From Promicromonospora sukumoe 327MFSha3.1 (GTDB lineage Bacteria; Actinomycetota; Actinomycetes; Actinomycetales; Cellulomonadaceae), in the NCBI RefSeq assembly GCF_000385135.1, contig NZ_ARQM01000010.1:2046001-2110000 (forward strand): a stretch of DNA of 64,000 nucleotides, read 5' to 3'. Below are positions 6,076 to 63,646 of this stretch, piece after piece. A program made the position numbers and the translations under genes. The notes under the pieces were generated by a model. That model was not told the DNA's origin, ran no database searches, and saw only the letters and a list, made by a program, of their open reading frames with translations. How positions within the stretch are numbered: the stretch's first letter is position 1; each line of letters starts with the position of its first letter.

Positions 6076-6117
6076 TGTCAGACGTACAGATCCCCCGGGT
6101 GACCTGTACGTCTGACA
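6076..6117. promoter_or_regulatory. 14-bp perfect inverted repeat (operator or terminator)
   Basis: Arms TGTCAGACGTACAG (6076-6089) and CTGTACGTCTGACA (6104-6117) are perfectly complementary across a 14-nt spacer. It lies between the stop of the flavoenzyme gene and the start of the MFS gene, both minus strand. The modest G+C of the arms, the long spacer and the lack of a U-tract make an operator as likely as a terminator. A related half, GGTCAGACAC, occurs just upstream at about 6057-6066. Confidence 0.6.
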
Positions 6118-13344: not shown

Positions 13345-13410
13345 CCCTTTGAGGCCTAAGTTTCTTCGCTTTGGGCTACGTCAAAGCGAAGAAACTTAGG
13401 CCTCAAAGGG
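13345..13410. terminator. 29-bp perfect hairpin after aroB
   Basis: Left arm 13345-13373 and right arm 13382-13410 are perfectly complementary over 29 bp across an 8-nt loop (GGCTACGT). The arms are A+T-richer than their surroundings (core TAAGTTTCTTCGC). Position, 25 bp after the aroB stop and upstream of the Gly-rich gene, fits the terminator of the aroC-aroK-aroB unit. The arm length and perfection are more than a terminator needs. Confidence 0.75.
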
Positions 13411-16557: not shown

Positions 16558-16579
16558 GCGGGGTGAACATGGTGCCCCG

Positions 16580-16626
16580 GAGGGGGTAACGGAGAGTGCA
16601 CGATGTGCACTCTCCGTTACCCCCTC
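16580..16626. terminator. 22-bp perfect hairpin after aroE
   Basis: Arms at 16580-16601 and 16605-16626 are complementary over 22 bp with the 3-nt loop GAT; the core is TAACGGAGAGTGCAC. It lies 35 bp downstream of the aroE stop and upstream of aroC, both minus strand. It would end the alaS-to-aroE unit, or cruciform extrusion could matter, given the tiny loop. No U-tract follows, as is common in actinobacteria. Confidence 0.75.
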
Positions 16627-16661
16627 GGGAGCACAGGTCTTGCCCCGACGGGCCGGACGGC

Positions 16662-20782: not shown

Positions 20783-23476
20783 TCAGGCGCCGACGGCGAC
20801 CAGGCGCACGCCCTCGGCGATGCCCGCGAGGGCCTCGCCGAGCTTGGCGGGGTCGGTGCCGCCGCCCTGGGCCATGTCCGGCTTGCCGCCGCCACCGCCG
20901 CCGAGCGTCTGGGCGGCGGTGCGCACCAGGTCGCCGGCCTTGTAGCCGGCCGCACGGGCGGCGGCGTTGGTCACGACCACCACGACCGGGCGGCCGCCCG
21001 ACACGCCGCCGGCGGCGGCCACGACCGGCTCGGCCTCGCCGAGGCGGCCGCGCACGTCGAGCACGAGGGCGCGCAGGTCGTCGGCCTGGGCCTCGCCGGC
21101 GTCGTGCGTGACGACGCGGACGTCGCCCACCCGCGGGGCCTCGGCGGCGAGCTTGCCGGCGACGGCCAGGAGCTGGCCCTGCCGCAGCGTGGCGAGCTCC
21201 TTCTCGGCCTCCTTCAGGCGCGTCACGAGCGAGCCGACCCGCTCGTGCAGGTCCTCGGGGCGCGTGTTGAGCAGGCCGGTGAGCTGGCCCACCAGGGCGT
21301 GCTCCTTGGCCTGGAAGCCGTAGGCGCCGTCGCCCACCAGGGCGTCGACGCGGCGCACGCCGGAGCCGATCGACGACTCGCCCAGCAGCGTGACCCGGCC
21401 GAGCTGGCCGGTCTGCTTGACGTGCGTGCCGGCGCACAGCTCGCGCGACCAGTCGCCGCCGATCGAGACCACGCGGACGACGTCGCCGTACTTCTCGCCG
21501 AACAGCGCCATGGCGCCGGCCTCGCGGGCCTGGGCGATCGGCATGAGCTGGTCGGTGACCTCGAGGTTGTCGGCGAGGCGCACGTTGACGCGCTCCTCGA
21601 TCTCCGTCAGGGCGGACGCCGAGACGGCCGACGGCGAGCGGAAGTCGAACCGGATGCGGCTCGGGGCGTTCTCCGAGCCGGCCTGGGTGCGGTCCGGGCC
21701 GACGAGCTCGTGCAGCGCCTTGTGGATCATGTGCGTGGCCGAGTGGGCGCGGCTGATGGCCTTGCGACGGGCCGTGTCGATCTGCGCGGTGCCCGGGTCG
21801 CCCAGGGCGGCCGTGCCCTCGACCAGGCGGCCGCGGTGCACGTTCAGGCCCTTGATCGGGCGCTGGACGTCGTCGACCTCGATGGTGGCGCCGCTGTCGA
21901 GCACGATCGTGCCGTGGTCGGCGAGCTGGCCACCGGCCTCGGCGTAGAACGGCGTGCGGTCCAGGACCACCTCGATCTCGGCCGGGGCGGTGACGGCGGG
22001 GACGGGCACGCCGCCGCTGAGCAGGCCCACGACGCGCACGGTGGCGTCGGTCTGCGTGTAGCCGAGGAACTCGACGGGAGCGGTGAGCTCCTTCTCCAGG
22101 GCCTCGTAGGCGGCGACGTCGGCCCCGCCGGTGCGCTTGGCGAGCGCGTCGGCGCGGGCGCGCGTGCGCTGCTCCTGCATCAGCGAGCGGAAGGCCTTCT
22201 CATCCACCTGGACGCCCTGCTCGGCGGCCATCTCGAGGGTCAGGTCGATCGGGAAGCCGTAGGTGTCGTGCAGCTGGAAGGCGGCCTCGCCGGGCAGCAC
22301 CAGGTGCTCGCCGCCCTGCTTCTTCAGGCCGGCCACGGCGCTGTCCAGGATCGTGGTGCCCGAGGCCAGCGTGCGGCGGAAGGCCTCCTCCTCGGCGTAG
22401 GCGACGGCCGAGATCTGCTCGAAGTTGGTGCCCAGCTCCGGGTAGGAGGGGGCCATCGCGTCCTTGGAGACCGGCAGCAGCGACGGCAGGGCGACGCCGT
22501 CGACGCCCAGCAGGCGCATGGCGCGCACGGAACGGCGCAGCAGGCGGCGCAGCACGTAGCCGCGGCCCTCGTTGGAGGGGCGCACGCCGTCGCCGATGAT
22601 CATCAGCGCGGAGCGGACGTGGTCGGCCACGACGCGCATGCGCACGTCGTCGTCGTGGTTCTCGCCGTACTTCTTGCCGGACAGCTGCTCGGCGGCCTCG
22701 ATGACGGGGAAGACCTCGTCGATCTCGTACATGTTGTCCTTGCCCTGGAGCAGGAAGGCAACACGCTCGAGGCCCATGCCGGTATCGATGTTCTTCTTGG
22801 CGAGCTCGCCGACGATCCGGAAGTCCTCCTTGGACTTCACGTCGTCGATGGCGTACTGCATGAAGACCAGGTTCCAGATCTCGACGAAGCGGTCGCCGCC
22901 CTCGTCGATCAGCGGGCCGCCGTCAGGCCCGAAGGCGGGGCCGCGGTCGTAGAAGATCTCCGAGCACGGGCCGGCCGGGCCGGGCTGGCCGGTGGACCAG
23001 TAGTTGTCCTTCTTGCCGAGGCCCTGGATGCGCTCGTCGGGCAGGCCGACGATGTCCTTCCACAGCTGGCGGGCCTCGTCGTCCTCGTAGTAGACGGTGA
23101 CCCACAGCTTGTCGGGGTCGATGCCCAGCTTGCCGTCGTCCAGGGAGCCCGTCAGGAAGTCCCAGGCGAACCGGATGGCGTCGGCCTTGAAGTAGTCGCC
23201 GAACGAGAAGTTGCCGTTCATCTGGAAGAACGTGCCGTGCCGCGTCGTCTTGCCGACGTCGTCGATGTCGAGCGTGCGCACGCACTTCTGCACGCTGGTG
23301 GCGCGGGTCCACGGCGGGGTCTGCTGGGCCGTCATGTACGGGATGAACGGCACCATGCCCGCGATGGTGAACAGCGTCGACGGGTCCGGGGAGATCAGCG
23401 ACGCCGACGGCACCACCGCGTGGCCCTGAGCTTCGAAGTAGTCGAGCCAACGCTTGCGGATCTCGGCGGTGCGCAT
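20783..23476 (-). CDS. alaS: Alanyl-tRNA synthetase
   Basis: An 897-residue class II synthetase of full length. The catalytic core includes [20 protein letters not shown] and the WNLVFMQY segment. The editing domain has the zinc-binding pair SATHMIH and CAGTH. The C-terminal C-Ala domain ends with a Gly-rich stretch ([16 protein letters not shown]) that binds the tRNA elbow. It charges tRNA-Ala and clears mischarged Ser and Gly. The gene follows DUF6167 after 146 bp that I cannot assign, and it is tightly linked to ruvX downstream. AAGGA lies 12 bases before the ATG, which is rather far. Confidence 0.98.
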
Positions 23477-23622: not shown

Positions 23623-23877
23623 TTACCGCTGGTCGCCCGGAAGCTCGCCGCGCAGGGACGCCATCAGCTGGGCCTCCCGCTCGGCGCGCGCCGTCGCGAA
23701 GTCCGACCGGAACGTGTGCGCCATGCGGTTCAGCCGCACGCCGGCGTCGTCCACCGCGGCGGCCGCGCGCTCGCTGACGGCCTCGGGCGTGTACCGGGCG
23801 ACGATCTGGCGGCCCTTGTGGATCACGACCACGGTGACCGCGACGCCGACGCCGACCCAGAACAGGCGGCGGATCAC
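23623..23877 (-). CDS. Small DUF6167-type membrane protein
   Basis: An 84-residue protein with one N-terminal transmembrane helix (RRLFWVGVGVAVTVVVIHKG) and a cytoplasmic helix of mixed charge (LNRMAHTFRSDFATARAERE). It matches my memory of the DUF6167 family that sits between DUF948 and alaS in many Micrococcales. Function is unknown. The ATG overlaps the DUF948 stop (ATGA), so the two products are made together and may form a membrane complex. Confidence 0.75.
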   Translation of the reverse strand: MIRRLFWVGVGVAVTVVVIHKGRQIVARYTPEAVSERAAAAVDDAGVRLNRMAHTFRSDFATARAEREAQLMASLRGELPGDQR

Positions 23878-24284
23878 GCCTCGGCCCCGTTCGTGCCCGC
23901 GTCACTGTCGGCGTGCCGGCCGGACCGGCCCTTGGCCTGGCCGAACGCCTGCCGCACGCCGTACGAGAACGCCGCGACCTTGACGAGCGGCTTGCCCAGC
24001 GTGGCCGCGTACAGGCCCGTCAGCGCGGACACGTTCTCGCTGACCGAGGCCGCGGAGGTCGTGATCGTGTCGACCTTGACGAGCTGCGTGTTCGCGGAGG
24101 CGACGGTGCTCGCGGCCTCGTCGAGGATCGGCACCGAGTGCTCGGTGACGTCCTTGACGCTCAGCCGCGCCTCGTCCAGGAGCTTGCCCAGCTTCCACAA
24201 CGGGACGGCGAGAAAGCCCACGAGGAGCACGAACGCGATCGCCGCGATCAGTCCCGCCACGTCTCCGAGGTCGCCGAGGGTCAT
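23874..24284 (-). CDS. DUF948 domain membrane protein
   Basis: A 136-residue protein. An N-terminal transmembrane helix (VAGLIAAIAFVLLVGFLAV) is followed by a long amphipathic helix (LLDEARLSVKDVTEHSVPIL, then Ala/Ser/Thr heptads), which is the DUF948 pattern. Members are related to methyl-accepting-type coiled coils and general-stress membrane proteins, but the role is unproven. ATG 24284 has AGGAG eight bases upstream and starts at MTLGDLGDVAGL, the family opening; a longer frame to 24323 lacks this support. It is the first gene of the alaS operon and is preceded by the palindromic repeat array. Confidence 0.85.
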   Translation of the reverse strand: MTLGDLGDVAGLIAAIAFVLLVGFLAVPLWKLGKLLDEARLSVKDVTEHSVPILDEAASTVASANTQLVKVDTITTSAASVSENVSALTGLYAATLGKPLVKVAAFSYGVRQAFGQAKGRSGRHADSDAGTNGAEA

Positions 24285-24408
24285 GCGTGAGCTCCTGCCT
24301 GAAGGTCCGCGGATGTCCGGCACGGACGTCTCACTGACGACTGCCGGGGGTCGACGATCACCCTATCCCCCTGGCGGCCCCCCTCGCCCGTCGCCCCGCG
24401 GTGCGCCG

Positions 24409-24960
24409 GGTTCCCGTCCCCGGCACGGGAACCTGGCACGGGAGGACCGGCCGGGCGTCGAACGTAGGGTTCGTCGGCTCCTGCGCCTCTATGGAGCGAC
24501 GAACCCTACGTTCGACGGCGCCTGAGGCGACGCAGCCTACGTTCGACGGGGGCTGGCGTGGCGCAGCGCGGTGTGGCGTCGTGTGCACCTGGCGTGGACG
24601 CCCGCTGCTGGAGTACTGGCGCGGCGTAGGAACTGGTACGGCGTAGTGCTGGCACGGCGTCGGAGTACCGGCCCGGCGTCGAACGTAGGGTTCGTCGGCT
24701 CCTGCGCCTCTATGGAGCGACGACCCTACGTTCGACGGCGTCGAAGCCGACCAACTCAACGTTCGACGGCGGGCTGGCCTGGTGGGGCGCGGAGCGGCGC
24801 CAGGCGCAACTAGCGCGGACGCCCGCCGCTGGAGCACTGGCACGGCGTAGTACTGGCACGGCGTCGGAGTACGCGTACGGCGTCGAACGTAGAGTTCGTC
24901 GGCTCCCGCGCGTCTATGGAGCGACGAACCCTACGTTCGACGGCGCCTGCGGCGTCGCGG
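24409..24960. repeat. Palindromic repeat array, about 2.5 units of 204-221 bp
   Basis: Three copies of a long palindrome lie at 24456-24517, 24677-24737 and 24881-24942. Each has 21-bp arms of the type CGTCGAACGTAGGGTTCGTC and a 20-nt centre (GCTCC...GGAG) that pairs further with one bulged G. Copy 1 arms are perfect; copy 2 lacks one A in its right arm; copy 3 has one mismatch in its left arm. After copies 1 and 2 comes a degenerate third arm ending ACGTTCGACGG (about 24539 and 24759). Spacers between copies are also alike (GGACGCCCGC, CTGGCACGGCGTCGGAGTAC), so the whole is a tandem array. A 9-bp hairpin (24409-24417 with 24425-24433) opens it. The gap from 24285 to 25080 has no convincing gene. 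Confidence 0.9.
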
Positions 24961-25024: not shown

Positions 25025-25062
25025 GACGGCCCCGGCCGCGCCGTGGCGCGGACGGGGCCGTC
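25025..25062 (-). terminator. rpsD terminator
   Basis: GACGGCCCCG (25025-25034) pairs with CGGGGCCGTC (25053-25062). After one mismatch, CCGCGCC (25036-25042) pairs with GGCGCGG (25045-25051). It starts 19 bp after the rpsD stop and gives a strong GC hairpin without a clear U-tract. Confidence 0.8.
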
Positions 25063-25080: not shown

Positions 25081-25707
25081 TCAGCGAGCGTAGAACTCGA
25101 CGACCATCTGCACGTCGCAGGTCACGGGGACCTCGGCGCGCTTCGGCTGACGGGTCAGCGTGGCGGTCAGCTTCTCGAGCTGGACGTCCAGGTAGCCCGG
25201 GAGGGCCGGCAGCACGTCGCGGTGCGCGCCCGCGGCGGCGACCTGGAACGGCACCGTGGTCTGGCTCTTCGGCTTGACCTGGATGGTCTGCCCCGGCTTC
25301 ACGCGGAACGACGGGCGGTCCACGATCTTGCCGTCCACCAGGATGTGACGGTGGGTCACGTGCTGGCGGGCCTGCAGGATGGTGCGGCCGAAGCCGGCAC
25401 GCAGCACCACGGAGTCCAGACGGGTCTCCAGGTCCTCGACCATGACCTCACCGGTCAGGCCGGCCTGCTTGCGGGCGTTCTCGTACACCTTGAGAAGCTG
25501 CTTCTCGCGAAGCATGTACTGCGCACGCAGACGCTGCTTCTCGCGCAGACGCACCGCGTAGTCCGACTCGGTGCGACGACGGGCACGACCGTGCTCGCCG
25601 GGCGGGTACGGACGCTTCTCGAAGTGCTTGACGGCCTTGGGCGTGAGCGCGAGGCCCAGCTTGCGGCTCAGGCGCACCTGACGGCGCGCACGGGTCACAG
25701 AAGTCAC
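25081..25707 (-). CDS. rpsD: 30S ribosomal protein S4
   Basis: A 208-residue primary rRNA-binding protein of the small subunit. The N-terminal basic domain ([18 protein letters not shown], then [15 protein letters not shown]) lacks the four zinc Cys, so it is the C-minus form. The S4 RNA-binding domain runs from about residue 98 ([20 protein letters not shown], then [20 protein letters not shown]). Starts with GTG, with AGGACA seven bases upstream. It is a single-gene unit with a strong terminator; rarA lies upstream on the same strand. Confidence 0.97.
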
Positions 25708-63605: not shown

Positions 63606-63646
63606 CGCCGCGTCCCGGGGTCGGCACCCGACCCCGGGACGCGGCG
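63606..63646. terminator. Bidirectional terminator after the MerR gene
   Basis: A 19-bp perfect stem (63606-63624 with 63628-63646) with a CAC loop; the core is GTCCCGGGGTCGG. It lies 15 bp after the MerR stop and 15 bp before the stop of the convergent hydrolase gene, so it can end both transcripts. Confidence 0.85.

Follow-up and report, generated by a model that had tools for sequence, protein, structure and literature searches.

Introduction

Repeats of the REP type are usually explained by RAYT transposases. In the parts of the literature available to us, the nearest published systems are the REPINs (PMC3116915), the tagged REPs (PMC3733652), and the elements covered by a TnpA-Y1 survey (PMC6006769). 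In the portions of these sources at hand, the REPINs of Pseudomonas fluorescens SBW25 are described as inverted REP doublets (PMC3116915), and CGTC REPs as stems of 8-9 bp with loops of 4-5 nt and an unpaired CGTC tag plus tail (PMC3733652). The latter source also mentions untagged REP-like palindromes in M. tuberculosis, D. radiodurans, Bordetellae, Brucellae, and Cyanobacteria. The word Actinobacteria was not found in the main text of either PMC3733652 or PMC6006769.

Here we describe a palindromic repeat, termed family A, from a window of 64,000 nucleotides of the Promicromonospora sukumoe 327MFSha3.1 genome, where three copies form an array between rpsD and the alaS operon. Going by the same portions of the sources, family A resembles the SBW25 REPINs (PMC3116915) in its two invariant inverted ends, less conserved spacer and predicted hairpin, and also in its many extragenic copies and the presence of several families per genome. 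REPINs, however, are associated with RAYT genes and have ends that overlap REPs, whereas none of the 13 genomes with family A yielded a Y1 gene, and the 56-bp unit of family A is shorter than the SBW25 REPINs. Like the CGTC REPs (PMC3733652), family A consists of dispersed palindromes near gene 3' ends without a dedicated transposase, but on inspection it carries no such tag, its stem exceeds 20 bp, and the loop of the window copies measures 11 nt. It shares the lack of conserved terminal tags with the untagged REP-like palindromes (PMC3733652), a likeness at the level of description. Because neither the defining RAYT gene nor the unpaired tag was found, we refer to family A as REPIN-like and not as a REPIN.

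Results

Anatomy of the array

The array and its neighbors have the following coordinates in the window.

24409..24960, no strand assigned: whole array, three tandem units with one family-A palindrome each
24459..24514, no strand assigned: first family-A palindrome (copy 1), 56 bp; with 3 flanking nt counted per side, its arms pair perfectly over 21 nt
24680..24734, no strand assigned: family-A palindrome copy 2, 55 bp; right arm one base short
24884..24939, no strand assigned: family-A palindrome copy 3, 56 bp; left arm with one unpaired change
24536..24545, plus strand: orphan right half-arm, CCTACGTTCG
24757..24766, plus strand: degenerate orphan right half-arm, one mismatch
25025..25062, minus strand: separate hairpin, probable rpsD terminator, 18 bp past the rpsD stop, -36.7 kcal/mol
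25081..25707, minus strand: rpsD, with Ribosomal_S4 and S4 domains; upstream neighbor of the array in transcription
23874..24284, minus strand: DUF948 gene, the nearest gene transcriptionally downstream of the array
23623..23877, minus strand: gene of 84 aa without Pfam match
20783..23476, minus strand: alaS, assigned as alanyl-tRNA synthetase on its translation and the initial annotation only

The initial annotation had described three palindromes in units of 221 and 204 bp together with extra arms, and this was borne out, with palindrome starts at exactly these distances and half-arms at 24536 and 24757. Its arm length of 21 bp is accurate for copy 1 (24456-24476 and 24497-24517, perfect over 21 nt each and separated by 20 nt), while copies 2 and 3 deviate as listed. 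It had further reported both compensating and non-compensating changes between the copies; the non-compensating ones were seen, but compensating changes are not visible among the three copies by direct reading and only appear against other family-A copies and other species. In the predicted folds of the window copies, pairing extends beyond 21 bp via a one-base bulge, and folding energies on the minus strand range from -42 to -47 kcal/mol for the three copies.

Along the minus strand, rpsD is followed by the hairpin at 25025-25062, the array, the DUF948 gene, the 84-aa gene, and alaS. The rpsD stop and copy 3 are 138 bp apart with the hairpin in between, and copy 1 lies 171 bp upstream of the DUF948 start codon. 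By reading, the displayed sequences of relatives carry a similar GC-rich hairpin after rpsD, with or without family A. A CACCCTATCCC motif at 24359-24369 is retained in most of the relatives displayed and may be a promoter region.

The lone 12-nt arm is not over-represented in the window, because its 13 matches at up to two mismatches (shuffle mean 8.3) were reached in 8 of 100 shuffles; the improbable feature of the array is the exact paired arrangement of the arms. Rfam gave no match in the window at gathering score. The single sub-threshold match (20.4 vs 59.8 bits) was taken as chance, and a T-box, riboswitch, or known RNA was rejected.

Family A is dispersed in the genome and found throughout the genus

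The family-A unit has a near-fixed length of ∼56 bp, CGAACGTAGG-N4-GTCG-N20-CGAC-N4-CCTACGTTCG, which amounts to two inverted conserved half-sites of 18 nt (CGAACGTAGG-N4-GTCG) flanking a variable center of 20 bp. A covariance model built from 38 copies gave 118 strand matches in the P. sukumoe genome, corresponding to at least 59 places, a lower bound with the best 150 of 7178 first-look candidates scored. The arm pair CGAACGTAGG-N34..38-CCTACGTTCG occurs exactly 43 times genome-wide vs 0 times for the backward pattern. Model matches were present in all 13 Promicromonospora genomes, and outside the genus few weak ones were found, in 3 of 26 other genomes. The initial annotation had considered that the arm might occur nowhere else, which would have made the array a local duplication only; with these copy numbers, that reading was rejected.

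Among the matches listed for named genomes, the arm pattern was found at 80 or more loci of 93 stretches, with those listed comprising 59 in Promicromonospora, 20 in Saccharothrix, and 1 in a Promicromonosporaceae MAG. Saccharothrix belongs to a different actinobacterial order. Its repeats (20 loci fetched) have the same end of 10-11 nt, CGAACGTAGGA, and the same inverted organization as family A, but on reading consist of a 34-bp palindrome surrounded by 22-bp half-arm repeats, and it is because of this nesting of half-arm repeats that 56-bp matches arise there. The nested pattern can be seen at locus L032 (568-645) and at other loci.

Several other origins were considered. The exact family-A pattern had no match in viral_contigs, and plasmids and phages contained no family-A match; a phage or plasmid origin was rejected. 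DNA uptake sequences occur as very many single, unpaired copies, genes included. Here, 121 arm matches (15-mer, up to two mismatches) stood against 118 strand matches of the paired element, so that the arms are nearly always paired, and a DNA uptake sequence was therefore rejected as well. In open-licence literature, the arm letters turned up in 9 papers, none of them on bacterial repeats as judged by title.

Tandem copies were also seen elsewhere in the P. sukumoe genome: locus L183 5614-6339 (C10:375613-376338) contains six family-A copies at a spacing of ∼133 bp, and the matching site in G007, one of the related genomes, has a single copy.

The genus contains further palindrome families. 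TGTCAGACG palindromes are present in 10 of 13 genomes, with 65 exact copies in P. sukumoe and 125 in G006, and AGTTTCTTCGCT palindromes in 6 of 13 (46 and 56 exact copies, respectively). A GAGAACGNG pattern, comprising two sequence types, had 0 matches in P. sukumoe but was matched in 5 of 13 genomes, although the one G006 match looks non-palindromic. The TGTCAGACG and AGTTTCTTCGCT families resemble family A in fixed length, conserved outer arms, and a co-varying stretch, in a comparison that includes a set of only 9 and 11 distinct copies, and still more palindrome types were seen as single cases. The window itself holds a TGTCAGACG...CGTCTGACA palindrome at 6076-6117 (28 bp off a gene stop) and a AGTTTCTTCGCT...AGCGAAGAAACT palindrome at 13345-13410 (24 bp off a gene stop). 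Long palindromes also lie just past gene stops at 16572-16634 and 63606-63646, the second between convergent genes. A palindrome census of the window found 6 vs 0 in each of three shuffles; it missed the family-A copies themselves and is no control for family A.

Copies lie mostly near gene ends, and slots without them often hold another palindrome

The initial annotation had also pointed to the position of the copies relative to gene ends. Of 40 family-A clusters, 17 lie between convergent genes, 15 between tandem genes, and 4 between divergent genes, and the other 4 fall within predicted genes, based on a codon-usage gene finder with which single convergent, tandem, or inside labels may err. 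A gene 3' end was at most 60 bp away in 25 of the 36 intergenic clusters. For 60 named loci with 61 copies, the distribution was 15 convergent, 24 tandem, 8 divergent, 6 inside, and 8 at an edge. Of the two features of an intrinsic terminator, family A thus shows the hairpin just past the stop codon; a U-tract was not found, with 1.72 T per 15 nt after the element (n=184) vs 1.96 at random.

At the focal site in 12 relatives, one family-A copy was present in G006 and G011, a deletion remnant in G007, and another palindrome, of GAGAACGNGG type, in G001, G002, and G009. No copy was present in G003, G004, G005, G008, and G012, and G010 has an assembly gap. This distribution does not support a conserved role in the leader of the alaS operon, where the initial annotation had placed the array, and it is unlikely that the array is a conserved alaS regulator or a requirement of the alaS operon.

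At 28 more sites, for which 80 regions from four relatives were read, family A was present in 37 regions and absent from 43. It was present at 15 of 19 slots in G010 (P. kroppenstedtii), 9 of 21 in G006, 8 of 21 in G007, and 5 of 19 in G003, where the absent calls for G010 include sites beside runs of N, two of which were dropped from the slot comparison below (43 to 41). With this many slots in common with P. kroppenstedtii, movement is therefore slow or old. In the part of the alignments viewed, no insertion showed a clean empty site or a target duplication, two features by which a MITE with terminal inverted repeats would be recognized. Another long palindrome occupied 21 of the 41 slots that lacked family A, vs 14 of 62 control 3' slots in these relatives (odds ratio 3.6, p 0.003), a small and rough control made up of loci that had been fetched for holding family A. 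Within the P. sukumoe genome, long palindromes were found in 23 of 109 family-A-free 3' slots and in 4 of 93 divergent 5' regions, but in none of 65 coding stretches and none of 120 shuffles. At one G006 locus (L254, site C10:285590), the palindrome has a family-A-like interior, and both of its outer arms have changed, to TGAGCGCGGG.

The arms combine invariant letters with a co-varying spacer

Across 119 copies, conservation falls into two blocks per arm, one at positions 1-10 (CGAACGTAGG) and one at 15-18 (GTCG). Most positions between and within the blocks vary, yet they pair with the opposite arm above independence. In 117 distinct copies, observed vs expected pairs were 70 vs 47.1 at position 11, 84 vs 41.5 at position 12, and 89 vs 46.3 at position 14, and beyond the second block 83 vs 54.8, 68 vs 50.3, and 61 vs 40.3 at positions 19, 20, and 21, respectively. 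Co-variation was weak in the center (positions 22-28). A first alignment had 60 cells changed on both sides vs 31.9 in shuffles, and 0 of 500 shuffles were as high.

The same trend was observed between orthologous copies. In the 27 usable pairs of 37 (array sites and odd lengths were left out), 57 of 675 stem positions were altered on both sides where 12.8 were expected, and 50 of these 57 double changes were Watson-Crick in both species. The 20 closest pairs contained 17 double changes vs 3.6 expected, of which 16 were Watson-Crick. Since double changes exceed expectation, either the folded-back hairpin or arm-to-arm copying matters; a spacer that is paired but otherwise free means that either selection or such copying maintains a fold-back state.

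We also compared sense-strand G-U with A-C mismatches in 71 oriented distinct copies. These were 77 vs 68 (p 0.51), 28 vs 25 in positions 1-18 only, and 55 vs 37 (p 0.076) for tandem copies alone. Because the overall counts show no G-U excess, RNA is not clearly the folded molecule, and a DNA hairpin that would be read by a protein is favored.

One copy, C11:842194, differs from its P. kroppenstedtii counterpart at 17 of 36 interior positions, with flanks that are 95-97% identical. Random family-A copies within the P. sukumoe genome differ at 13.1 interior positions on average, and the interior of this copy may thus have been replaced. The other 11 G010 pairs differ at 1 to 7 interior positions.

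Search for a mobilizing enzyme

The initial annotation had noted that no transposase is nearby. In agreement, the Y1 transposase of REPs (PF01797) was found in 0 of 13 genus genomes, the P. sukumoe genome and the 83% complete G010 included, and the control matched in 5 of 14 named genomes. The TnpA-Y1 survey, in the part available to us, also relied on PF01797 (PMC6006769). The REP/BIME likeness proposed initially therefore holds as far as a dispersed REP-like family is concerned, but not for strict RAYT-linked REP/BIME elements.

A predicted gene at L176 8427-9425 is bracketed by family-A copies in the P. sukumoe genome and several relatives. It has no Pfam match and was set aside as a candidate mobilizer, as was its suspected identity as DUF559, since PF04480 has no match in the genome. 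Pfam searches of 8 further family-A neighbors, chosen non-systematically, gave no transposase, and no candidate enzyme emerged among those neighboring genes that were checked with Pfam.

Discussion

We conclude that the array is a REPIN-like palindromic repeat without RAYT that was triplicated locally between the terminator-like hairpin of rpsD and the alaS operon. The best explanation, to which we assign a probability of roughly 0.55, is that family A is a REPIN-like DNA repeat whose hairpin is read by a protein and which is spread by an enzyme, and that the window array is one copy tripled. The conserved letters would be read by a protein, and this protein would recognize the folded-back hairpin, as single-stranded DNA or as a cruciform. 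The folded form is the likely target because in a duplex the spacer would pair whatever the other arm says. Copies would spread through an enzyme and be tolerated just past stop codons, with termination or insulation of transcription as a possible side effect there. The window array would then have formed by amplification of one copy to three tandem units, behind the terminator-like hairpin of rpsD. Arm-to-arm mutational copying could also be the source of the covariation, without a hairpin-binding protein.

If taken further, such copying leads to an explanation in which the arms are kept alike neutrally, via template-switch or cruciform-linked correction of one arm by the other, and in which neither a function nor an enzyme is involved. 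The fast and sometimes adjacent double changes between close species, nearly all of them Watson-Crick (16 of 17 in the 20 closest pairs), are what this would produce, but it leaves unexplained both the invariant outer letters at about 60 dispersed places and the amplification of several families, and we regard it as quite improbable. The invariant letters are equally a problem for the view that the copies are long bidirectional terminators or 3'-end stabilizers without a U-tract, selected on RNA structure and with families that are interchangeable in a terminator slot. Their placement just past stops and between convergent genes, the stable predicted folds, the other palindromes in 21 of 41 slots without family A, and the lean of tandem copies towards G-U all agree with it. 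It is weakened by the balanced G-U and A-C counts, both overall and in positions 1-18, by the absence of T-richness after the element, and by rpsD at the focal site already having its own hairpin, and the slot control that speaks for it is small and drawn from loci fetched for family A. Altogether, we consider selection as terminators somewhat unlikely.

The arms could also be sites at which a sequence-specific regulator or a nucleoid protein binds duplex DNA, which would be consistent with conserved blocks about one helical turn apart at nearly fixed spacing. However, duplex binding does not require the observed co-variation of the inter-block spacer with the opposite arm, and the copies occur at the ends of genes and not at promoters (only 4 of 40 clusters are divergent), making this improbable. 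Ordinary mobilization by RAYT, with family A as a GTAG REP or BIME, would account for the copy number, the extragenic placement near 3' ends (36 of 40 clusters outside predicted genes), the inverted organization, and the GTAG within the conserved arm. It is nevertheless largely refuted and very improbable: PF01797 had no match in any of the 13 genomes, the GTAG at arm positions 6-9 is paired in 114-119 of 119 copies instead of forming an unpaired GT[AG]G at the hairpin foot, and by reading the half-elements have no hairpin of their own.

The preferred reading of family A as a REPIN-like, enzyme-spread repeat may extend to the genus as a whole. Tentatively, and we think this unlikely as a complete account, Promicromonospora would have a RAYT-less REPIN-like class, with several families of one design (near-fixed length, invariant outer arms, and a spacer that needs only self-complementarity), a non-Y1 enzyme that reads the hairpin, and unrelated families that swap at 3' slots between species. 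With at least 59 copies of family A, 65 and 46 exact copies of two other families, and no Y1 transposase found, the spread of palindromic repeats by means other than RAYT becomes testable in this genus. The slot comparison, in which families differ between species at the same gene end, offers a natural experiment to distinguish whether these elements act as parasites, as terminators, or as both.
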